This document shows, in pieces, positions 1 to 23,058 of a stretch of DNA of 47,802 bases. Made by a program: the position numbers and the translations under genes. The notes under the pieces are model-generated. The model saw nothing but the letters and a program-made list of their open reading frames with translations. It ran no database searches and was not told the DNA's origin. How positions within the stretch are numbered: position 1 is the first letter of the stretch; each line of letters begins with the position of its first letter. The stretch is from an uncultured Traorella sp. (GTDB taxonomy: Bacteria; Bacillota_I; Bacilli_A; Erysipelotrichales; Erysipelotrichaceae). The stretch is from assembly GCA_945919165.1 (NCBI GenBank), contig CAMEIZ010000002.1:1-47802 (forward strand), written 5' to 3'.

Positions 1-1497
1 CGCACGAACCTCATCATCAATCTTAATATCGGTACCACGTCCAGCCATGTTTGTAGCAATTGTCACAGCACCTTTTTCTCCGGCATGTTTAATGATTTCA
101 GCTTCTTTTGCATGATTTTTCGCATTCAATACCTGATGCTTAATACCGGCTTTTGTAAACATTTCAGATAGTTTTTCAGATACTTCTACTGAAATTGTAC
201 CAATCAAAACCGGTTGTCCTTTTTCATGAAGCTGTTTTGCTTCTTTAAGCAAAGCATCAAATTTCAGCTTTGGTGTGCGATACACAACATCTGGATAATC
301 AATACGAGCTACTGGACGATTAGTTGGGACAACCAGTACACGCATATTGTACGTATTCAAGAATTCTTCTTCTTCTGTTTTAGCTGTACCTGTCATACCT
401 GCCAGCTTTTCATATAATCTAAAGAAGTTCTGATAAGTAATCGTAGCAAGAGTTGACGTTTCTTCACGGATTTTACATCCTTCTTTTGCTTCAAGGGCCT
501 GATGCAATCCATCAGAGAAAGCTCTTCCCTTCATAATACGTCCGGTAAACTGGTCAACAATGACAATTTCACCATCATGAACAACATACTCAACATCTTT
601 GTTCATAATATAGTTGGCTTTCAATGCCATAGAGATATGATGAACCAATTGTACATGTTTAACATCATACAAGTTGTCAATTTTAAACATCTGTTCAGCA
701 CGATCAACACCTGAATCTGTCAAATTAATTGCTTTTGAACGTTCATCAATCACATAGTCTTTTTTCGTCAATGATTTAGCAAAAATATCTGCCTGACGAT
801 AGAAGTCAGCTGTTTCTTTCTTTCCGCCAGAAATAATCAATGGTGTTCTTGCTTCATCAATCAAAATTGAGTCAACTTCATCAATCACGGCAAAATTTAA
901 ACCACGTAATACACGATCTGATGCACGAGTCACCATGTTGTCACGAAGATAGTCAAATCCTAGTTCAGCATTCGTTGTATATGTAATATCACATTTATAG
1001 ATGTCCTGCTTCTGATAAATGTTCAGCTCTCTGGAATTCACTCCGACAGTCAACCCAAGGAATCGGTAAATTTCTCCCATCCAGGCAGCATCTCGTCCAG
1101 CCAGATAATCATTTACTGTGATGACATGTACACCTTTTCCTTCCAATGCATTTAAATAAACACACATAATTGAAGTCAGTGTTTTTCCTTCACCGGTTTT
1201 CATCTCAGCGATATCACCGCCATTAAGTACTAATGCACCAATGATCTGTACATAGAAAGGGAATTCTCCCAATACCCTTTTTGCTGCTTCACGAATGGTC
1301 GCAAATGCTTCTGGAAGAATATCATCCTTCGTTTCACCATTTGCCAAACGTTGTTTAAATTCAGCGGTCTTAGCTTTTAATTCATCATCGCTCAGACTTG
1401 CCATTGCAGATTCTAGTGCAACTACTTCATTTGCCTTCTGCTCGTATTTTTTCATAATACGTTTTTCTTCATTAAATAAATTTCCTAATAAGCCCAT
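1..1497 (-). CDS. secA: SecA preprotein translocase ATPase (C-terminal part outside window)
   Basis: ATPase motor that drives post-translational protein export through SecYEG at the cytoplasmic membrane. The frame is open from a start at 1497 to the left edge (499 codons, roughly the N-terminal 60 percent). It is missing from the ORF track because it runs off the end. Visible are the short N-terminal helix ([13 protein letters not shown]), Walker A MKTGEGKT, Walker B with [15 protein letters not shown], the preprotein cross-linking domain, and the start of the second motor domain with GRGTDIK near the edge. A ribosome binding site (GGAGG) lies 10 nt upstream of the ATG. The start is unambiguous and identification is secure. 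Confidence 0.97.
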
Positions 1498-4163: not shown

Positions 4164-4730
4164 ATGGACACAATTACCCTTATTACTTGTGCAGTTGGAT
4201 TGGCCATGGATGCTTTTGCAGTTTCTATCTGTAAAGGGCTGGCATTAAAAAAGATCGATATAAAAAAACAAGTTCTTGTTGGTGCTTGGTTTGGCGGATT
4301 TCAAGGTTTGATGCCTCTGATTGGTTATCTGCTGGGAAAAAGCTTTGAACAGTATATCACATCTATCGATCACTGGATTGCATTTATTCTATTAGGCTTT
4401 ATCGGTTTCAATATGATTCATGAATCTATGGAACAAAACAGCTGCGAAGAATGTGGTGACGCTTCATTAGATCCCAAATCCATGTTGATGCTGGCTATTG
4501 CAACCAGTATTGATGCTCTTGCAGTCGGCATAACGTTTGCGTTAATCGATGTCAATATTGTCCTAGCTGTCATATTAATTGGCTCTATCACCTTTATTTT
4601 ATCCATGACAGGTGTAAAAATTGGTCATGTGTTTGGCATGAAATACAAATCTAAAGCTGAATTGGCTGGAGGAATCGTTTTAATCTTATTGGGCTTGAAA
4701 ATTCTTCTGGAACATTTAAACATTCTTTAA
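4164..4730 (+). CDS. mntP: MntP manganese efflux pump
   Basis: A 188-residue membrane protein exporting Mn2+ from the cytoplasm. It shows the two-repeat MntP architecture of six membrane segments, with the paired motifs [16 protein letters not shown] near the start and [16 protein letters not shown] in the second half; the conserved Asp in each repeat is thought to bind the metal. The ORF track starts at 4113, inside the riboswitch terminator hairpin. The ATG at 4164 is preceded by GAGGAGG at the right distance and begins the normal family N-terminus, so it is chosen. The riboswitch upstream gives Mn-dependent induction. Confidence 0.96.
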
Positions 4731-4838: not shown

Positions 4839-5642
4839 TTATAATCTGAACATTGACTCTGTCAAATCTTTCAAATTTACACTGTTTTGATCAGAAAACT
4901 CAAATTTTGAATAAATTTGTATTTCATATGTCTTATCATGATAATGAGTAACAAAACAAATATCAGGCATCTTTTTGGTGATTTTATACTGATCTAAATT
5001 CTCCCATTTTATTTCAATCGGTTTTGGATCATCTCGAAACAAAAGAAGTCGTTTTGCCCATGAAAACTGATCAACAAATTGATCCTGATCTGATGCATAA
5101 ACAAAAACTCGAAATTCATTTTCTTCAAAGTCATAGAAAAAATTGTGACAATTCGTAACATCCTTTGTTGAATTCAAAACGGAATAAAAAGTCTCTACCT
5201 GACAAAACCAATCCTGTTTTTCTAGATTCAATTCATACGCTTTTTCTGCTTCACTTGTTGGAACATGATAAGTAAACGTGTTGATGCTATCAAATAATCC
5301 CCAAGTAACAATAGCCAAAACGGCAAATGACATCAAAACACTTTTTTTTGTTAATGAAAAATTAAAAACACCTTCCAATACCAATGCACTAGTTACTGCC
5401 ATAACAGGATAAAAAACAGCAGGATTAAGATAACGATTTTGATATGCCTGAACTAAAACTGCAATCAATAATAAAACACTTGATGTGGGAAGCAGCCAGC
5501 GTTTCTTGTCAGTTTGCCATCTTTTCTGAAGTTTCATCAAGGAAATCAGAAGCCAAAAAAACAATCCCAGAATAAATAAAATCAATGTATAGCGAAATAA
5601 ATACCTAAAAAGGAAAGGCGCACTCATGATTTGTTCTCGCAT
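4839..5642 (-). CDS. Uncharacterised membrane protein with C-terminal soluble domain
   Basis: 267 residues, family not recognised. About four hydrophobic segments occupy the first half (roughly residues 13-38, 48-66, 74-92 and 100-118). A soluble C-terminal half of about 140 residues follows, rich in acidic and aromatic residues, with two Cys near residues 150 and 165 that could form a disulfide if this part is extracytoplasmic. The ATG follows AGAAGGAGATATT, a strong site. A consensus promoter at 5899-5927 lies upstream, with a broken mini-ORF in between. No catalytic motif is visible, and I assign no function. Confidence 0.8.
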   Translation of the reverse strand: MREQIMSAPFLFRYLFRYTLILFILGLFFWLLISLMKLQKRWQTDKKRWLLPTSSVLLLIAVLVQAYQNRYLNPAVFYPVMAVTSALVLEGVFNFSLTKKSVLMSFAVLAIVTWGLFDSINTFTYHVPTSEAEKAYELNLEKQDWFCQVETFYSVLNSTKDVTNCHNFFYDFEENEFRVFVYASDQDQFVDQFSWAKRLLLFRDDPKPIEIKWENLDQYKITKKMPDICFVTHYHDKTYEIQIYSKFEFSDQNSVNLKDLTESMFRL

Positions 5643-5711
5643 AATATCTCCTTCTAATTACTCTCATACAATTAATCAGCCATTTAAATATACATAACCA
5701 ACAGTTCTACT

Positions 5712-5857
5712 TTAGTTTGTGTGTTGTTGGACAATTTTCAGTCCCATTGCTTCTTTTTTCTTTTCTTTTTCAAATAATTCTTCAAGCTCGGTAAAAAGTA
5801 AGCTATAAAATATGATTATGTTTACTTTTTACCATTAATAATTACTGGTTCTATCAT
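5712..5857 (-). pseudogene. Split mini-ORF, possibly an interrupted small gene
   Basis: A strong GGAGG site precedes ATG at 5857, giving MIEPVIINGKK and then a stop at 5822. About 30 nt further on, another frame is open from 5792 (Thr) to a stop at 5712, reading TELEELFEKEKKKEAMG and a short tail, but it lacks a good start codon. The two pieces would read well as one charged peptide of about 37 residues. The break coincides exactly with a 12-bp inverted repeat at 5790-5833. Either a small gene was interrupted, or this is a short leader ORF followed by a hairpin. Both readings are inference. Confidence 0.35.
5790..5833 (-). repeat. 12-bp inverted repeat within the split mini-ORF
   Basis: GGTAAAAAGTAA (5790-5801) and TTACTTTTTACC (5822-5833) are perfect inverted copies around 20 nt. 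In RNA this would be an AT-rich hairpin. The left arm on the minus strand includes the stop codon of the MIEPVIINGKK ORF. Confidence 0.7.
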
Positions 5858-5898
5858 ATTTTATCCTCCAAACCAAAATGGATATTTTTTATATCTTT

Positions 5899-5927
5899 AT
5901 TATAATTTATATATATGATTATGTCAA
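5899..5927 (-). promoter_or_regulatory. Perfect-consensus sigma-A promoter, leftward
   Basis: On the minus strand: TTGACA (5927-5922), exactly 17 nt, TATAAT (5904-5899). Both hexamers match consensus. Transcription would start near 5892 and run through the mini-ORF at 5857 into the 4839-5642 gene. The rest of the 5643-6037 gap shows no gene. Confidence 0.8.
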
Positions 5928-6037
5928 TATTTACATTGTATGAGAGTGTGGAATTATTTATGTGATTTATTTCATTAAAAATATATGCATAGGTATATAA
6001 ACATTATGGTTTTCTCATTTTGATTCGATTACTCTTA

Positions 6038-7606
6038 TTACATTAAAGGTGCAATTGTTTTCAAAACAAAGCCCATAAGCTTTAAAGAAAGCTTTTCAGA
6101 TTTTATTGTTTCAAAAGTTACTTTTCGACATTTTTGAAGCGTTTCTTGAAAATCTTTTTCAATATCCATAATGCAATCTGTCTGCGCCATATAAGTAGCA
6201 CATTCAAAGTGATGATAAAGACTTCTATAGTCTAAATTGACGGTGCCGACAACAGCTTCTCTGTCATCCTTGACAAAGACTTTTGCATGAACAAAACCTG
6301 GTGCATATTCATAGATTTTAACACCTGAAGCCAATAGCGATGCATAATGTGTTTTAGCCAGTGAATAAGGAGCTTTCTTATCCGGAATCCCGGGCAGAAT
6401 CAGTTTCACATCTATACCTCTTTCTGCAGCAAATTTCAAAGCTGTTTCCATTTCTCCGTCTAATATAAGGTAAGGCGACATAATATGCACATATTTCTGA
6501 GCACGATTTAAAAGATCCATGTAGACACGTTCTCCAACTTTATCACGATCTAAAGGACAATCTCCATAAGGAATCACATACCCTTTTGCTTGTAATGAAG
6601 TTGTTGGATAAGAAAGAAATGGTTCAAACACGGCTTCTTTTTCATTTATATTCCACATTTGAAGAAACATTAACGTAAAGCTTTTTACTGCTTCTCCTTT
6701 CAGCATAACTGCCACATCTTTCCAATGACCATGTTTTTCGATATGATTGATATATTCATCTGCAAGATTCACACCGCCATTAAACGCCGTATGACCATCT
6801 ATGACTAGAATTTTACGATGATCGCGATAATTATAATGAGTAGATACAAAAGGAGTCACCGGAGAAAACATCTTACATTGAATACCCAAAGCTTTTAAAC
6901 GTTTTGGATAATCATGCGGAAGAGTTGAGAATTCACAAGTACCATCATACATCACTCTGACATCAACACCTTCTTTTGCTTTGCGTGCCAGTATTTCCAA
7001 AATTCTGCCCCACATGAGTCCTTCTTCTACGATGAAATATTCTAAGAAAATAAAATGTTTCGCTTCTTCCAATTGACGTAAAAGCTCTTCCCACTTTTTT
7101 TCTCCTGTCGGAAAGTAAGTGACACTTGTATGATCATAAACAGGAAAATTACTGCTATTCTTTAAATAATGGACCAAACCAGCAGCTTCTTGATTTTCAT
7201 TTTCAAAAGCTGTCAAGACATCCTGATTTTGAGGAAGACTGTTTTGAGTTTGATCGATCAATTGCTTCAGGCGAGCTTTTAAAACGCGGTTGCCTAAGTC
7301 GCTTTGTGTATACCAAAACAATAATGCTCCAAATACTGGCAAAAGCATGATGACAACAAGCCAGGTAATTTTTGCGGTAGGATCAATACGACTGTTGAGA
7401 AGATATAATACCATGCCAACAGTAAAAAGAGCGCTTCCTCCTAAAACATGCGGCAAAAAATCATAAAACCATTTAAAAGCACCGAATAAAAGAAAAAAAT
7501 GAAAAATCAGTAAAATCAAGATCAGACCCAAACGACTGAAAAGCAAATGAACCAGACCTTTTTTTCCTTTTTTAAGTAATAGCATTCCTTTATTTTCATT
7601 TTCCAT
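6038..7606 (-). CDS. cls: Cardiolipin synthase (phospholipase D family)
   Basis: A 522-residue membrane enzyme that joins two phosphatidylglycerols into cardiolipin plus glycerol. Hydrophobic segments near residues 25-50, 55-70 and 80-97 anchor it. Two HKD catalytic motifs follow, HYNYRDHRKILVIDG in the middle and FVHAKVFVKDDREAVVGT near residue 440, each with the required His, Lys and Asp and the downstream N (FNGGVN, TVNLDYRS). Length matches Gram-positive Cls (about 480-520). It is a single gene, about 70 nt from the nitroreductase-galE pair transcribed in the same direction, with a terminator between them. Confidence 0.95.
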   Translation of the reverse strand: MENENKGMLLLKKGKKGLVHLLFSRLGLILILLIFHFFLLFGAFKWFYDFLPHVLGGSALFTVGMVLYLLNSRIDPTAKITWLVVIMLLPVFGALLFWYTQSDLGNRVLKARLKQLIDQTQNSLPQNQDVLTAFENENQEAAGLVHYLKNSSNFPVYDHTSVTYFPTGEKKWEELLRQLEEAKHFIFLEYFIVEEGLMWGRILEILARKAKEGVDVRVMYDGTCEFSTLPHDYPKRLKALGIQCKMFSPVTPFVSTHYNYRDHRKILVIDGHTAFNGGVNLADEYINHIEKHGHWKDVAVMLKGEAVKSFTLMFLQMWNINEKEAVFEPFLSYPTTSLQAKGYVIPYGDCPLDRDKVGERVYMDLLNRAQKYVHIMSPYLILDGEMETALKFAAERGIDVKLILPGIPDKKAPYSLAKTHYASLLASGVKIYEYAPGFVHAKVFVKDDREAVVGTVNLDYRSLYHHFECATYMAQTDCIMDIEKDFQETLQKCRKVTFETIKSEKLSLKLMGFVLKTIAPLM

Positions 7607-11202: not shown

Positions 11203-11450
11203 AACAAAACGCAATGAAGCGAATAGTAGTTATCAAAGGATCAAAAGAGAGTTCATGGCTGGTGGAAATGAATGTGAAAGTGATAATGAAGATGGCCGCT
11301 GAGTGGCATAGATGATAGGTAATCTATGACGGTGCTGCCCGTTAACGCAGACAAGTATCAACAGCGTACTTGGTAAGGTATTATCTGTGAGGATAATATG
11401 AAACAGGGTGGTAACACGATAACTCGTCCCAGATGACGGGTTTTTTTTTG
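11203..11450 (+). ncRNA. T-box leader, probably tRNA-Met responsive
   Basis: A 5' leader that senses uncharged tRNA. The T-box bulge sequence AGGGTGGTAACACG (11405-11418) carries UGGU for pairing with an ACCA tRNA end. Stem I contains the AGAGAG and GGTGG elements of the distal loop. The terminator is AACTCGTC / GACGGGTT (11421-11442) followed by nine T. ATG at 11286-11288 is a plausible specifier codon for methionine; it is chosen because it sits on the 3' side of stem I and because the downstream gene is metN. The class is secure and the specifier is inference. Confidence 0.88.
11421..11449 (+). terminator. T-box terminator hairpin
   Basis: An 8-bp stem AACTCGTC / GACGGGTT with a CCAGAT loop and then T9. 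It competes with the antiterminator formed by the T-box sequence just upstream. Confidence 0.85.
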
Positions 11451-11467
11451 AATATAAGGAGGATTGT

Positions 11468-12496
11468 ATGATTGAATTAAAACATGTGACAAAAACATTC
11501 GCATCCAAAGAAAAAGATGTACACGCCTGCAAAGATGTCTCTTTAACAATTCACGATGGTGATATTTATGGTATCATCGGTTTTTCCGGAGCCGGTAAAT
11601 CAACATTGGTCAGATGTATCAACCTGCTTGAAAGACCAACCAGTGGTGAAGTCATTATTGATGGAGTTGATATCACAAAACTAAGTGAAAAAGAACTTCG
11701 AAAGGTAAGAAAAAAGATTGGTATGATCTTTCAGCATTTTAATCTGATGCCTTCAAGAACCGTTGCACAGAACATTGCCTATCCTTTGAAAGGAAGCGGA
11801 CTTTCTAAGCAGGAAATCAATAAAAAGGTAGATGACCTTCTTGAACTGGTAGATTTAAAAGAAAAAAAGGATGCCTATCCGTCACAGCTATCAGGCGGTC
11901 AAAAGCAGCGAGTTGCCATTGCCCGCTCTTTAGCAAGCGATCCAACTGTACTTCTTTGTGATGAAGCTACATCAGCTTTAGATCCTCAGACAACACAGTC
12001 TATTTTAAACCTGTTAAAAGAAGTGAATAAAAAACTCAATCTGACCATTGTTTTGATCACACATGAAATGGCAGTTATTAAATCTATCTGTAACCAGGTA
12101 GCAGTCATGGAAAATGGAAGCATCGTGGAACAAAGCAATATCTATGATTTGTTTGCCAATCCAAAACAACAGGTAACAAAAAACTTTGTTATGACAACAA
12201 GCTCTATGAATAAGCTTTATGAAATGATTGAATCCAACAGTCCTTTGATTCAAGTTAAAGAAAACGAAAAACTGATTCTTTTGAATTATGCCAATAATAA
12301 TGCAGACAAGGCATTGATAAGTGAAGTATCTCGAAATTTTAGTGTAGATACAAGCATTGTTTTTGGAAATCTGGAAGTAATCGATCATCGTCCGCTTGGC
12401 TCACTGGCTATCATTATCGGCGGTGAAAGTGTTAATGTCGATGCAGCTATTCAATATTTTGAAAGTTATGGTGTGAAAGTTGAGGTGCTGAAATAA
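11468..12496 (+). CDS. metN: Methionine ABC transporter ATP-binding protein MetN
   Basis: 342-residue ATPase that powers methionine import (MUT family). Walker A is GFSGAGKST (about 38-46), the Q-loop is FQHFN, the signature is LSGGQKQRVAIAR, Walker B is VLLCDEATSALDP, and the H-loop is LITHEM. After residue 265 comes the C-terminal NIL (ferredoxin-like) domain that binds methionine and inhibits transport when the cell is replete; this domain distinguishes MetN from general amino-acid ATPases. The start ATG follows AAGGAGG. metI begins at its stop codon (TAATG). The T-box leader gives induction when tRNA-Met is uncharged. Confidence 0.95.
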   Translation: MIELKHVTKTFASKEKDVHACKDVSLTIHDGDIYGIIGFSGAGKSTLVRCINLLERPTSGEVIIDGVDITKLSEKELRKVRKKIGMIFQHFNLMPSRTVAQNIAYPLKGSGLSKQEINKKVDDLLELVDLKEKKDAYPSQLSGGQKQRVAIARSLASDPTVLLCDEATSALDPQTTQSILNLLKEVNKKLNLTIVLITHEMAVIKSICNQVAVMENGSIVEQSNIYDLFANPKQQVTKNFVMTTSSMNKLYEMIESNSPLIQVKENEKLILLNYANNNADKALISEVSRNFSVDTSIVFGNLEVIDHRPLGSLAIIIGGESVNVDAAIQYFESYGVKVEVLK

Positions 12497-16620: not shown

Positions 16621-18018
16621 TCAGCCATTCTTTAGGCGCGTTCTTTTTTTCCAAAAATAAATGCTTAAATATAAAAGAATGTTTATTACCAACCATACAC
16701 TGCAAATCAATGTTGATTGTCGAATAACATGACCATTCACTTCCACAAAATTAAATCCCTGATAGAAATAAACATAGGTCATTTTAAATGGATTTAACAT
16801 ATTTAAGATTGTATATGGCCAAAATAATTCAAGCATCAGCATTCCAACAATCAATATCAAGCTTGTAATAAAGCGGCTTTTCGTAAAACAAGATAAAAAA
16901 GATGAAAGAGCTGCTGTTGCCAGTGAGGATGAAATCAGCATCCATAAGGCAATTCCAATCACCTCTTTATAAGTACTCATGAATTGAACAAAAGATTCTG
17001 TACATACAATATTTAGATTTCGAATAGGAACACGTGCGTTAACAATGCTGTATAATTCAATCAGATAGATGATATATATGCCAATTGCAATCAGAATCGA
17101 AGTCGTGATTTTCGCTAAAATTACCTGTTTATTTTTTACACTGCTTATAAGAAACTGTTCCGTATCAGAAGTATGTTCAATGGCAAAAAGATTTGATGTA
17201 AGAATCAAGCATAAAATTAGAAGGGTCACATAAATAAGAGTCACATTTGAACCGGATAAAAAGTATACGATAAGATCAGCACCTACTGTTGAGTCAAAAG
17301 TGTAGGGATTGTTTAGAAACTTCTCATTCCCTTTTTCGATCATTTTTGGTGTTAATTCAATTTGATCTGTGAATCTATTCTCCAGAAAACCCATTTTGAG
17401 ATTTTCTTTTTTATCGATTAAATAGCTTTCCCGATGAACAAGCATTTCAAATTCATTTTCATTCTGAAATAGATAGTTCAATAATCGATACATCTTCATA
17501 TTCTTATAAATCGGTTTTAAAGCGTGCGCACCATCTTCAAAATATAGAATTTGTGGAGTATCTATATCTGCATAGCTTCCTCCACTTGTAGGATGATAAA
17601 AAGCAACTAATTGCTGATCCAGTTTATTGATTTCTTCAGAGCTTACTTCTTGATTTCTTAAAGCCATATCCAATTCTTTATAATCTTCACCATAGTATCG
17701 AATCATCGCTTCTTCATCCAATACATCCATTTCATGCTCATGAATAATAGATTGTTTAAGATTTTGTATTTCATCCAAAAAATCATCATTCAAAACACCT
17801 GCATGCTCATGCCAAAAAGTATCAATATAAATTATCATCTCTTTTGAGTTCATTTGTTTTCCTTCAAAATTTATATACTCATAAACATCGCTCATATACA
17901 TGCCATTCAGCTGATCCATGATTACATACGTGCAAACACTAAAAGCAAAGAAAACGATAAAAAGATTAAATTTGCTTTTAAATATTTTTTTGAATTCATA
18001 TTTCAACAATTTCAACAT
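16621..18018 (-). CDS. ABC-2 type permease, paralogue C of three
   Basis: 465 residues from the ATG at 18018. The ORF-track start at 18078 lies inside the preceding gene; the chosen start follows GTGAGG and sits 2 nt after that gene's stop. Layout: KLLKYEFKKIFKSKFN, one membrane segment (about 17-37), a charged segment of about 210 residues that is probably extracytoplasmic (contains DEEAMIRYYGEDY and NPYTFDSTVGADL), then about six membrane segments. This is the ABC-2/exporter type with a large inserted domain. It shares these motifs with the next two upstream genes, so they are paralogues. No substrate can be named; export of or self-protection from a peptide is one option. Confidence 0.82.
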   Translation of the reverse strand: MLKLLKYEFKKIFKSKFNLFIVFFAFSVCTYVIMDQLNGMYMSDVYEYINFEGKQMNSKEMIIYIDTFWHEHAGVLNDDFLDEIQNLKQSIIHEHEMDVLDEEAMIRYYGEDYKELDMALRNQEVSSEEINKLDQQLVAFYHPTSGGSYADIDTPQILYFEDGAHALKPIYKNMKMYRLLNYLFQNENEFEMLVHRESYLIDKKENLKMGFLENRFTDQIELTPKMIEKGNEKFLNNPYTFDSTVGADLIVYFLSGSNVTLIYVTLLILCLILTSNLFAIEHTSDTEQFLISSVKNKQVILAKITTSILIAIGIYIIYLIELYSIVNARVPIRNLNIVCTESFVQFMSTYKEVIGIALWMLISSSLATAALSSFLSCFTKSRFITSLILIVGMLMLELFWPYTILNMLNPFKMTYVYFYQGFNFVEVNGHVIRQSTLICSVWLVINILLYLSIYFWKKRTRLKNG

Positions 18019-18020
18019 GA

Positions 18021-19490
18021 TTACCTCACATGATGCCTTCTTTGTTTGACATAACAGCAAGCATATAAAATAACACAAACAATCAGCCAGATGCCCGTTA
18101 CAAAAACAGATAATGGTAAAACTAACTCATGAATTTTTACCACATTTAATAAATCTGTCCCTACCATTGATTGTTGGAAGGAAAGATAATCATTTCCATA
18201 GATCATCATAGATGGCATGAAGATAAAAGCTTCAATACCTTTCATAAAATACGGTAAAAAGAAAGCTGTTAATAGAATTAATATCGTTACAAATCTGCTT
18301 TTTGTCAGACATGATAAGAAAAATGATAAAGTTGCTGCCGCAATCAATGCCGTAAAAATCAAAGCCATAAACATCAATAATACTTCTCGATATGTATATA
18401 AATAATTCACTCCTATCATTGAAACTAAATCAAGGTTACGAATGGGAACAATACTTGAAATATACAAGACTGTTCCAATGAAATAAATAGCATAAAAACC
18501 TATCGCAAGAATCAATGCAGCGATTATTTTTGCAATTGTCAATTGTTTAAAACCTGACTTACTGCATGCCAGATACTGTTCCATTTGATTGGTTTTTTCA
18601 ATAGAAAAGATATTGGATGTCAAAACCAGAATTACAATTATAAACAGCAGCTGATTGATAACAGGTCCTTGAAAGCCAAAGGTATATATCAAAAGATCAT
18701 TGGCAACATTTGAATCAATTGTATAAGGATTTTCAATATATTTGTGATTGAAATAAGCCAGATGTTCTTCCTTTAACTGATCTTTTGTCTTTTCAGGGAT
18801 ATTACCTAGAAAGATATCTTTGTTGAGTTCATTCTTTTCAATAAAGCTTGGTTCAATCAGATACTGATCACGCTCATAAAACTTATCTGAATATGTTATC
18901 AGATTGGCATATAGGGCATTCAGGGCTAATACTTTTTCTTTATTTTTATAGAGAGGTTTTAATGTAAATTGAGTAAGATCTCCTTCATTCGTTAATTCAA
19001 CTGAAGGATCATCCATATAACATATATGATCTTCACAGTTTCTTTCCTCAATCTCTCTGATATAGGCTAAGACCTCCTCTTCGCTCATTTTTTTCTGTTC
19101 ACCAGCTTCCATGATGTCAAGATAATTCTCTCCATATGCTTTTTTCATTGCCTCTTCATCAATTTCATACATCTCAAACTTTTCCATGAGCTGTTCTTTT
19201 TCATTCATCAGTTTTTCAAAATAAGCCTGATTCCCTTCACCTGCTTGTTCATGCTGATATGCATCTATGTACCGCAACACATCTTTTGAAGTAAGCTCTT
19301 CATTTTCCAGAGTAACAAACTTTTGGTGTTGAAAAGGTAAATGTGCTAGTTCACTCGGATACAATTCCATATAAAAGGAAACACTGTTTGTCATGGCATA
19401 AAAACTGTAGCAAATAACTAAGATAACAAATAGAATATGAAATTTACTTTTAAATATTTTTTTGAATTCAAATAAAATCAGCTGAATCAT
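18021..19490 (-). CDS. ABC-2 type permease, paralogue B of three
   Basis: 489 residues, same architecture as its neighbours: MIQLILFEFKKIFKSKFH, a membrane segment at about 18-36, a large charged domain to about residue 260, and six hydrophobic segments. Shared landmarks are IDAYQHEQAGEGNQAYFEK, DEEAMKKAYGENYLD, ENPYTIDSNVANDLL and SIVPIRNLDLV (SKFH and PIRNL also occur in paralogue C). Its ATG overlaps the stop of the upstream frameshifted paralogue by one base and its stop is 2 nt before the next start, so all are translated from one message. It would pair with the single ATPase gene of the operon. Confidence 0.83.
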   Translation of the reverse strand: MIQLILFEFKKIFKSKFHILFVILVICYSFYAMTNSVSFYMELYPSELAHLPFQHQKFVTLENEELTSKDVLRYIDAYQHEQAGEGNQAYFEKLMNEKEQLMEKFEMYEIDEEAMKKAYGENYLDIMEAGEQKKMSEEEVLAYIREIEERNCEDHICYMDDPSVELTNEGDLTQFTLKPLYKNKEKVLALNALYANLITYSDKFYERDQYLIEPSFIEKNELNKDIFLGNIPEKTKDQLKEEHLAYFNHKYIENPYTIDSNVANDLLIYTFGFQGPVINQLLFIIVILVLTSNIFSIEKTNQMEQYLACSKSGFKQLTIAKIIAALILAIGFYAIYFIGTVLYISSIVPIRNLDLVSMIGVNYLYTYREVLLMFMALIFTALIAAATLSFFLSCLTKSRFVTILILLTAFFLPYFMKGIEAFIFMPSMMIYGNDYLSFQQSMVGTDLLNVVKIHELVLPLSVFVTGIWLIVCVILYACCYVKQRRHHVR

Positions 19491-20939
19491 TATGATTTCC
19501 TTTCACTATGACGCTTATATTTTTGTAAAACAAGAACATAAATGAACCCAATAATTATCATCCAACTGCCACAAGCCAGCCAGGAATTTTGAACGATCAT
19601 GGATCCAATCCGACTCAAATTGGTACCATTTGGAAATATTTGATTCCATGATAAAAATCCTTTGGTATAGATCATGATAACAGGTGAAATAAAACTTCTT
19701 ATATATGTTAAAAACACCAGGCAAAATAAAGTCATCAGTAACCCATAAACACGATTTGACAAAATATATGACCAGGCACCGCTCAGAATAGCAACAGCAT
19801 TTGCTGCCATGATCAATAACAGGATTTGATTCAACAAAATTTCTTTATATGTATAAACACCTTCAAATAAATATGGAGCTGAATAAAAAGGAGCCAGATA
19901 TACACAGTCCAGATCCTGTATTGGTACAATCCATAAAACAGTCAGATATGCCATCAATATATAAAAAATCATCAATCCGCTTCCTATCAGAAGTGCAGTA
20001 ATCATCTTTGCTGTCATCAATTTTTTGATTCCCATTTTGCTGCAGAAAAGAATGTTTTCTGTCTCACATTCATGATCGATGGAAAATAATTTTGATGTTA
20101 AAACAAGAATCAGAATCAAAATTGAATAAAGAGATAAATTGGTTCCGGTAGAGAGATGATCCACTAATAAATTTGCTCCAATATTCGATCCAATATAATC
20201 AGGCGCATGAAGATACTTTTCATTAAGCCAGTCAATCATTTTCTGATCATGTTCTTTGATCCCATAAAGAAAGTATACCGGAACAAAACTTGTTTTTTCA
20301 TCAGCACCTATTAATTGATCTTCTTTATGATATAAAACATCCCATCGATATGCATCAGAAATTCCATCATGATCTGATCGATAGAATAAATCATTTAATA
20401 GATTGCGGCTTTTTTCTTTTTGATAAAAATTTTTGATTGTAAAGGTAGTATCATTGAGATCAAGTATACCTGTTCCATTTTTTATGGCTTGAATATACTG
20501 ATTTTCAATAACACACATTTGAGATCGGCATACAGGATTATTTTCTTTGGTTTTTTCATTAAGTGCTGTAATTTCATCTCTTGCCATACTGCCGTTTTGT
20601 CCTTGCCGGATCAGTTCTTGATAGTTGTCTCCATAAGTCAGTTTCATTGTTTCTTCATCAATTATGTCCAATTGATTATTTAAAATGATTTCTTGTTCGA
20701 GTTCTTTCATTTTTTTTATGTAATCATCATTTACACTTCCTCAATTGATCCATAGCTCTGTAGGTTTCTATAACTGATAGACTTTCATTATCAAAGGATG
20801 CATATTTCCGATTACCAATTCTCGAGAAGTTTTGAATATTGATCATGGTAAAACTGAAGATGAAAACAGCTATGGTAAACAGAATCAGAAACTTGTTTTT
20901 ATATATTTTTTTCAATTCAAATAAAACAAGTTGAATCAT
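19490..20939 (-). pseudogene. ABC-2 type permease, paralogue A of three, frameshifted
   Basis: Two ORFs in the track (20727-20939 and 19490-20710) are the N- and C-terminal parts of one gene. The first gives MIQLVLFELKKIYKNKFL, a membrane segment and IETYRAMDQL, then hits a stop. Reading one frame over from about 20744, the chain continues as GSVNDDYIKKMKELE with no gap, which aligns position by position with AGEGNQAYFEKLMNEKE of paralogue B. Removing one base in TTGAGGA restores a protein of about 482 residues, matching its paralogues (465, 489). It is either a real inactivating insertion, a phase-variation state, or a base-calling error. Confidence 0.82.
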
Positions 20940-21829
20940 ATATCTTCACCAAAATCCTGTAAAACTTCATCCTTGAAATGATATAAATATAAATCATCGA
21001 GTCCTGGCTCAGTTATGATACCATTTTCAATTGGTTCATCTGAAACAATTCTTAAGGTATATATGTTTTGATGCTTTTTTACATTAACAACAATTTTATT
21101 GATCATGTATTCTTCCGCCTGCTTTCGTTCGCAGCAGACTTCAAACACTTTGTTTTCCATTTTATTTAAAAGATTTTCCGGATCATCATAATAGAGAATC
21201 TTCCCTTTTTTCATCATGATGATTTTATCTGCGATCGATTCTACATCACTGACGATATGAGTCGAAAGCAATACAACAGATTCTTCTCCTAAGCGTGAAA
21301 TTAAGTTTCTTAACACAATTCTCTCTTTCGGATCAAGCCCTGCAGTGGGTTCATCCAGAATCAGAATTTTGGGTTCATTTAAGAGTGCTTGTGCAATGCC
21401 TACACGTCTTTGCATTCCACCCGATAGGCTTTTGATCTTAGCTTTTCTTTTTTCTTCTAAATTTAGCTTAAAAAGAAGTTCATCAATTTTTTTCATATAG
21501 AACTCTTTTTTCAGTCCTTTGACAACGCTCATATATTCCAAGAATTCTTGAATGGTAAAGCTTGGATAAAAGCCCAAGTGCTGAGGCATATAACCAAGAT
21601 TCATTACATAGCTGTCATACTGTGACAAAATATCCTTTCCATTCCAGCATACTTTTCCGCTTGTCGGAGGTAAAATTCCACAGATCATTTTCATCAAAGT
21701 AGTTTTCCCGCTTCCATTTGCTCCGATAAGACCAATCACCCCTTTTTCAAGTTTTAGATTTATGTGATCGACTGCCACGGTTTTTAAAAACTGTTTGGTC
21801 AGCTCATCAACGATTAATTCCATATACAT
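20936..21829 (-). CDS. ABC transporter ATP-binding protein of the three-permease system
   Basis: 297-residue single ABC ATPase of the drug/peptide exporter (CcmA-like) group. Walker A is GANGSGKTT, the signature is LSGGMQRRVGIAQAL, Walker B is KILILDEPTAGLDP and the H-loop is LLSTHIV. About 80 further residues form a C-terminal extension typical of such exporters. Two start codons are possible (21829 or 21823) behind AGAAAGG; the first overlaps the upstream membrane-protein gene by 23 nt. The next gene begins within its last codons (ATGA overlap). It is the only ATPase in the operon, so it should serve all three permeases. Confidence 0.93.
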   Translation of the reverse strand: MYMELIVDELTKQFLKTVAVDHINLKLEKGVIGLIGANGSGKTTLMKMICGILPPTSGKVCWNGKDILSQYDSYVMNLGYMPQHLGFYPSFTIQEFLEYMSVVKGLKKEFYMKKIDELLFKLNLEEKRKAKIKSLSGGMQRRVGIAQALLNEPKILILDEPTAGLDPKERIVLRNLISRLGEESVVLLSTHIVSDVESIADKIIMMKKGKILYYDDPENLLNKMENKVFEVCCERKQAEEYMINKIVVNVKKHQNIYTLRIVSDEPIENGIITEPGLDDLYLYHFKDEVLQDFGEDI

Positions 21830-22526
21830 TTTCCTTTCTGTTTGAAATCTGATTTAGATGAATATATATTCCTAAACAATAAATACCAAATGATACAGCT
21901 AATAAGAATACGATCATTTTATTACTGATTGAAAGCATCATCACTTTTTGATTCACTTCAAAAGCAATTACGGCATAAATGCTTATATAGGCAATGATTA
22001 TGCTCAATTTATTGCTTACTTGGTCAACAACGATCAAAGTAACGGCGCTTATGAGATACATGGGTATAAGTGAACAAAAAAGTGACACCATAAAATCAAA
22101 ATGATGAAAAGATGATAAGATAAGATTAAAAAGAAGTGTACTGATCAGAGCCATTAATAGATAAATATTTGATTTATAAACAAAAATCTTTGCGGGATTC
22201 AGTTTTGCACACATCAATAATTCTTCCATACCCATCATACTGGAACGCAAATCATCATACAAAACAATCGTCCCTATCAGGGCTGCATTCATTGTACACA
22301 TCGCATATCCACCCTCTATCGCAAATGAAAGCAGGCACAAAATACACGAGCAAGTTAAACTTATTATCATATATTTCATGCTTTCTTTCTTAAAGAAACT
22401 CCACCAGATACAAGCAGAGCTTTCTTCATATTTCGTCTGTCTGTTTTTCAGTTTCAATTTAGATAATTCAATAGTTTGTTTCATATGATCTTCATCAATT
22501 TCCAACTTCTTATACTTTTCTTTCAT
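21807..22526 (-). CDS. Multi-spanning membrane protein in anti-sigma position
   Basis: 239 residues. A cytoplasmic N-terminal stretch of about 50 residues (KKLEIDEDHMKQTIELSKLK) precedes about six hydrophobic segments. It starts 17 nt inside the ECF sigma gene, the place where anti-sigma factors usually lie, and the charged helical N-terminus could bind sigma. It lacks the HxxxCxxC zinc motif of common anti-sigma factors. It might instead be a transporter subunit, since it is followed by the ATPase. GGAGG precedes the ATG. Function is inferred from position only. Confidence 0.72.
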   Translation of the reverse strand: MKEKYKKLEIDEDHMKQTIELSKLKLKNRQTKYEESSACIWWSFFKKESMKYMIISLTCSCILCLLSFAIEGGYAMCTMNAALIGTIVLYDDLRSSMMGMEELLMCAKLNPAKIFVYKSNIYLLMALISTLLFNLILSSFHHFDFMVSLFCSLIPMYLISAVTLIVVDQVSNKLSIIIAYISIYAVIAFEVNQKVMMLSISNKMIVFLLAVSFGIYCLGIYIHLNQISNRKENVYGINR

Positions 22527-23058
22527 CCAGTTCGCCTCCCTTCATAAGTTCCTCCAGTTTCATCAATGCCTGTCGATGCCGTGATTTAGCTGTTGACTGC
22601 GGAATTTTTAATATATCAGCAATATCTTTGAATTTTAGTTCATGATAATATCGTAATAGAATGATTTCTCTTGATAGTGGTGATAATTGTTTGACATAGG
22701 TCATCATGATTTCTTGCTTTGTTTTTTTCATGACAATTTCATGTGGGTTCTCATTACAGATCATTCTGGATTCATCCAGTTCCCTGTCATCCAAATATTT
22801 CAAGCTTTTATAATAATTGTTGGCCAGATTGATTCCAATACGAAATAAGTAATTCCTCAGTTTATCTTCTTCATGATAGGAATCAATATTTTCGACAAAT
22901 TTAATGAATACTTCCTGCGTGATATCTTTTGCTTTATCGCTTTGGTTCATTTTTTGGTATAAAAAAGCATACACCTGAGGATACATTTCTGTAATGATCG
23001 TTTCAAGTGCTTCTTCATTGCCGTTTTTAATCTGTAAAATAAGTTTTTTGGTATTCAT
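22510..23058 (-). CDS. ECF-type RNA polymerase sigma factor
   Basis: 182-residue extracytoplasmic-function sigma factor. Region 2 is visible as QSDKAKDITQEVFIKFVENI with the downstream RNYLFRIGINLANNYY, and region 4 as LSPLSREIILLRYYHELKFKDIADIL followed by the helix-turn-helix IPQSTAKSRHRQALMKLEE. No other sigma regions are present. It heads the operon with a membrane protein, ATPase and three permeases, so it likely controls that operon in response to envelope stress or a peptide. TAGGAGGAACATG gives a strong start. Confidence 0.95.
   Translation of the reverse strand: MNTKKLILQIKNGNEEALETIITEMYPQVYAFLYQKMNQSDKAKDITQEVFIKFVENIDSYHEEDKLRNYLFRIGINLANNYYKSLKYLDDRELDESRMICNENPHEIVMKKTKQEIMMTYVKQLSPLSREIILLRYYHELKFKDIADILKIPQSTAKSRHRQALMKLEELMKGGELDERKV

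Follow-up and report, generated by a model that had tools for sequence, protein, structure and literature searches.

Control of a gene through its 5' leader by an upstream open reading frame (uORF) or leader peptide is known from the erm leaders (PMC11264731) and the topAI uORF of E. coli (PMC12121999). Invertons have been described from gut bacteria, and inverted-repeat arms of 10-40 nt are a known pattern among them (PMC11892184). T-box and other Rfam leaders are a further group of 5' leaders, and a T-box leader (Rfam RF00230, 110 bits) lies on the plus strand of the DNA studied here at 11205-11434. It stands upstream of an ABC-transporter ATPase with a NIL domain (11468-12496) and a permease, and the transporter that it leads is probably an amino-acid (methionine-type) importer.

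Here we describe a promoter and leader region in the window, a stretch of 47,802 nucleotides (contig C2) from a draft genome of 1.78 Mb in 207 contigs that is approximately 83% complete and comes from a gut bacterium, probably in or near Traorella. The region is flanked by a cardiolipin-synthase-like gene on one side and an orphan membrane-protein gene on the other. All of its elements are on the minus strand, which an earlier sequence-only reading had left unstated. We tentatively propose, with a probability of roughly 0.45, that the feature comprises the promoter of the membrane-protein gene at 4839-5642 and its 5' leader of approximately 250 nt, and that the leader carries a uORF in a bistable RNA and probably tunes expression through translation of that uORF. 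The elements are the following.

6038-7606, minus strand: cardiolipin-synthase-like gene, with a PLDc_2 match
5935-5947, minus strand: distal arm, immediately ahead of the promoter, of an exact 13-bp inverted repeat
5899-5927, minus strand: perfect sigma-A consensus promoter TTGACA-17-TATAAT, -35 at 5927-5922 and -10 at 5904-5899
5865-5869, minus strand: Shine-Dalgarno GGAGG of the mini-ORF, 7 nt ahead of the ATG at 5857
5805-5864, minus strand: competing hairpin I7, with 12-bp arms at 5864-5853 and 5816-5805
5822-5857, minus strand: mini-ORF MIEPVIINGKK, 11 codons plus TAA, from the ATG at 5857 to the stop at 5824-5822
5790-5833, minus strand: hairpin I6, a perfect 12-bp stem with a 20-nt loop and with the mini-ORF stop codon at the end of its 5' arm
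5715-5800, minus strand: purine-rich tract, read earlier as TELEELFEKEKKKEAMG, charged in all frames
5678-5700, minus strand: 23-bp motif TGGTTATGTATATTTAAATGGCT, found at 21/23 in the leader of a diverged homologue from another Traorella genome, a metagenome-assembled genome (MAG)
5660-5672, minus strand: proximal arm of the exact 13-bp inverted repeat ACTCTCATACAAT
5648-5655, minus strand: AGAAGGAG, the Shine-Dalgarno that serves the membrane-protein gene
4839-5642, minus strand: orphan membrane-protein gene, 267 aa, for which a low-confidence model shows four helices at the N-terminus and an alpha/beta part at the C-terminus

The core of the sequence-only reading was borne out. The promoter that it called a perfect consensus matches at 12 of 12 positions with a 17-nt spacer, and is the sole perfect match in the window. 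Exact TTGACA-N17-TATAAT occurs nine times in the 1.78-Mb genome, compared with none for a reversed control pattern. The full GGAGG and the 11-codon ORF ending in TAA are also as claimed, so that the leader holds a short ORF with its own ribosome binding site. The same reading had the break in the ORF fall exactly on a 12-bp inverted repeat, and this is right because the 5' arm of I6 closes with the three bases of the stop codon. The arms of I6, GGTAAAAAGTAA at 5833-5822 and TTACTTTTTACC at 5801-5790, form 12 of 12 pairs. An exact 12-bp direct repeat, ACATAATCATAT, is shared between the I6 loop (5810-5821, minus strand) and the promoter spacer (5913-5924), and may be the trace of a template-switch event.

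The second hairpin, I7, forms between the start region of the mini-ORF and the loop of I6, its 5' arm covering the ATG and its 3' arm lying inside the loop. Because I7 crosses I6 the two are mutually exclusive, and the mini-ORF is thus placed in a predicted two-state structure in which one fold hides the start and the other engages the stop. A full pseudoknot of both was considered and rejected, as a 12-bp stem would have to be spanned by only 3 nt; the two are presumably alternatives instead. In the computed ensemble I6 is paired in approximately 67% and I7 in approximately 33%, and the two stem energies are -12.5 and -8.4 kcal/mol. Short-range 12-bp inverted repeats of this kind number four in the 47.8-kb window, and two of the four are I6 and I7. 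The computed fold of the leader beats 200 of 200 shuffles (z -2.98).

The intergenic region was picked for its unusual look, and the promoter, repeats and Shine-Dalgarno were examined after being picked out. Because the region and its elements were chosen in this way, the shuffle frequencies are generous and overstate significance: the perfect promoter is present in 3 of 2000 shuffles of the intergenic region and a repeat like I6 in 8 of 2000, GGAGG-5..9-ATG arises in 221 of 20,000 leader shuffles (approximately 1%), and at least two 12-bp inverted repeats occur in 1 of 20,000 shuffles of the 199-nt promoter-leader stretch.

A consensus scan found no terminator-like site between the promoter and the membrane-protein gene, so the simplest transcript would be a leader of approximately 250 nt followed by that gene. 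I6 itself is no intrinsic terminator because no U-run follows it. We infer from the sequence that the region is transcribed together with the gene and that the mini-ORF is translated, and any regulation is equally inferred. The strong housekeeping promoter would yield a transcript bearing an 11-codon upstream ORF that has a ribosome site to itself. Around this uORF the RNA would fold in two exclusive ways, with I7 closing the start region or I6 pairing the stop region and leaving the start free. A ribosome finishing the uORF would cover the 5' arm of I6 and, in the computed structures, could shift the balance between the folds, since the stop codon lies in that arm. The most likely role would be translation-dependent tuning of the folding or stability of the leader, acting on the downstream gene as uORF leaders do. 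The step from the uORF to the gene is missing from this scheme, because I6 is not a terminator and the computed accessibility of the membrane gene's Shine-Dalgarno is 0.35 with or without a ribosome on the mini-ORF stop. I6 and I7 lie approximately 130 nt upstream of that site. The structures therefore control neither a terminator-like site nor the downstream Shine-Dalgarno in the computed folds.

The structural model of the membrane protein has a mean pLDDT of 62, which is low confidence, and had no match in the PDB at E <= 0.001. Two relatives were detectable, one in an uncultured Traorella MAG and one in T. massiliensis, each at 25-26% identity and in differing gene contexts. The upstream regions of both lack this mini-ORF and the I6 and I7 hairpins, and the uORF leader is thus not conserved in these two homologues at 25-26% identity. 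In the MAG homologue the 23-bp motif stands approximately 30 bp ahead of the start codon, and its alignment scores above 200 of 200 shuffles, which speaks in favour of the leader reading. It had no other occurrence in 273 family genomes at <=1 mismatch. Judged from these two sequences, the motif may act as an operator or as a second promoter element, or be what is left of a short coding sequence. Its occurrence in two viral contigs was set aside as chance, these contigs encoding no relative of the membrane protein. In T. massiliensis a 12-codon ORF, MKKRIINRGNRL, lies behind GGGGAG (L041, 3379-3417), and its stop overlaps the start codon of the membrane-gene homologue. Just upstream of that homologue is an ORF named from its sequence alone as transposase-like (L041, 1746-3197).

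Comparison of the surrounding DNA covered further relatives. A DNA search of 60 relatives returned nothing but short low-complexity matches. Copies of the cardiolipin-synthase gene in relatives are just 38-45% identical, and no syntenic empty site was found in their context. Elsewhere in the window, three large consecutive minus-strand ORFs at 16621-20710 (485, 489 and 406 aa) have no Pfam match at 1e-5, and adjoin an ABC ATPase and a sigma-70-family (ECF-like) sigma factor (20936-23058).

If the uORF does not act on the gene, the feature would amount to a strong promoter whose leader is ornate yet inert, which we consider unlikely, if a serious contender. The corresponding explanation is given the same limited credence: a strong promoter and nothing more, followed by a long 5' UTR whose mini-ORF and hairpins have no regulatory role and arose neutrally from AT-rich intergenic sequence and a chance SD-ATG. 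The lack of conservation in the two relatives and the folding without coupling to the downstream Shine-Dalgarno speak for it, as do further GGAGG-ATG pairs with 3-19 codons elsewhere in the window. It has to account, however, for two crossing perfect 12-bp repeats that are very rare in shuffles, and for an SD-ATG, a perfect promoter and repeats that all fall within 140 bp. The promoter and start site of its own would also suit a free-standing small gene or small RNA (a short-peptide or sRNA gene, for instance) with its own transcript unrelated to the membrane gene. The want of a terminator-like site downstream, of a homologue and of an Rfam match makes that very doubtful. The remaining reading of a coding region is of a small protein gene whose remnant was split at the inverted repeat by a frameshift or by insertion of a small palindrome, and we regard it as improbable. 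The mini-ORF does have a good start site, and a remnant-like GYVYLNG followed by a stop lies downstream in the TELEEL frame, with a counterpart GYVYMNG and stop in one relative. The charged C-terminal part claimed by the sequence-only reading is present as TELEELFEKEKKKEAMG, but its frame is -1 relative to MIEPVIINGKK, it has neither an ATG, GTG or TTG start nor a Shine-Dalgarno, and the three frames of the purine run (LKNYLKKKRKKKQWD, KRKEKRSNGT and TELEELFEKEKKKEAMG) are all charged. Queries in which the two halves were bridged by a guessed linker, YLF, gave matches at chance level at most among phages, plasmids and 96 family genomes, and no intact homologue was found in that set. The best match in a relative, SNGKKYMVKELDEI in G002, has an E of 0.0036 per genome, or approximately 0.3 over 96, and lies inside a 144-aa ORF with no further likeness. 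A -1 frameshift joining both halves at the A run was also rejected, as the sequence is TAAAAAG and not an A-AAA-AAG heptamer and the joined product has no homologue. The interrupted small gene is therefore not supported, because the tract is charged in all frames, lies in another frame and had no homologue beyond chance level in that set. The case shows that a purine tract can pass for a charged peptide and so hint at a split gene. The other suggestion of the sequence-only reading, a leader ORF with a regulatory hairpin for the membrane protein, is the better of the two. Its start site, the lack of a terminator and the two exclusive hairpins stand; the computed accessibility of the downstream site, unchanged by a ribosome on the stop, shows no regulatory coupling.

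A different kind of control would follow if the promoter were invertible, with a site-specific recombinase flipping a 262-bp segment and so connecting the promoter to the membrane gene or disconnecting it. The promoter is indeed flanked by the exact 13-bp inverted repeat, whose arms are 262 bp apart and enclose promoter and leader, with the ribosome site of the membrane gene outside. These arms are the only exact copies in 1.78 Mb, their length is within the known 10-40 nt (PMC11892184), and such a repeat arises in 21 of 5000 shuffles of the region, a frequency as generous as those above. A second exact 13-bp pair with a similar gap occurs in the window at 4638/4915, however, and the repeat alone is therefore weak evidence of inversion. 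Seven tyrosine-recombinase-like matches were found in a genome-wide search for the tyrosine type, but none is on the contig of the window, and no recombinase was found in the annotated part of the window. The 23-bp motif common to the relative also lies within the segment and has the same orientation relative to the gene, which argues against flipping. A scan of viral contigs for the bracketing-repeat pattern gave no match. We consider an invertible promoter quite improbable, and a phase-variable leader, in which an invertible 262-bp cassette with the promoter and the uORF two-state switch would place the orphan membrane protein under both inversion and translation-dependent folding, a long shot.

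Returning to the preferred reading, a leader that regulates would add an uncharacterised control region of the uORF type from a gut genus of the Erysipelotrichaceae that has been little studied. A bracketing repeat that inverts would instead make this a phase-variable promoter, and if neither holds, nothing more than a strong promoter of the usual kind and its long leader remains. Like the T-box and other Rfam leaders, this is a structured 5' leader with alternative helices. A covariance-model search of 5600-6060 gave no credible match to any Rfam family, however, and the T-box of the window is at 11205-11434. Compared with the invertons of gut bacteria (PMC11892184), the locus has one orientation in one assembly, no neighbouring invertase was found, and the repeat is only 13 bp and is not common to other sites of the genome. 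As in invertons, short inverted repeats flank a promoter here, immediately ahead of the ribosome site of the membrane gene. With respect to the erm (PMC11264731) and topAI (PMC12121999) leaders, the differences are that no hairpin here masks the downstream Shine-Dalgarno or terminates, that no known stalling sequence was recognised, and that the gene downstream encodes an orphan membrane protein for which no conservation of the leader was found. What the locus has in common with them is a short ORF with its own Shine-Dalgarno behind a promoter, overlapping alternative hairpins, and a protein gene downstream.
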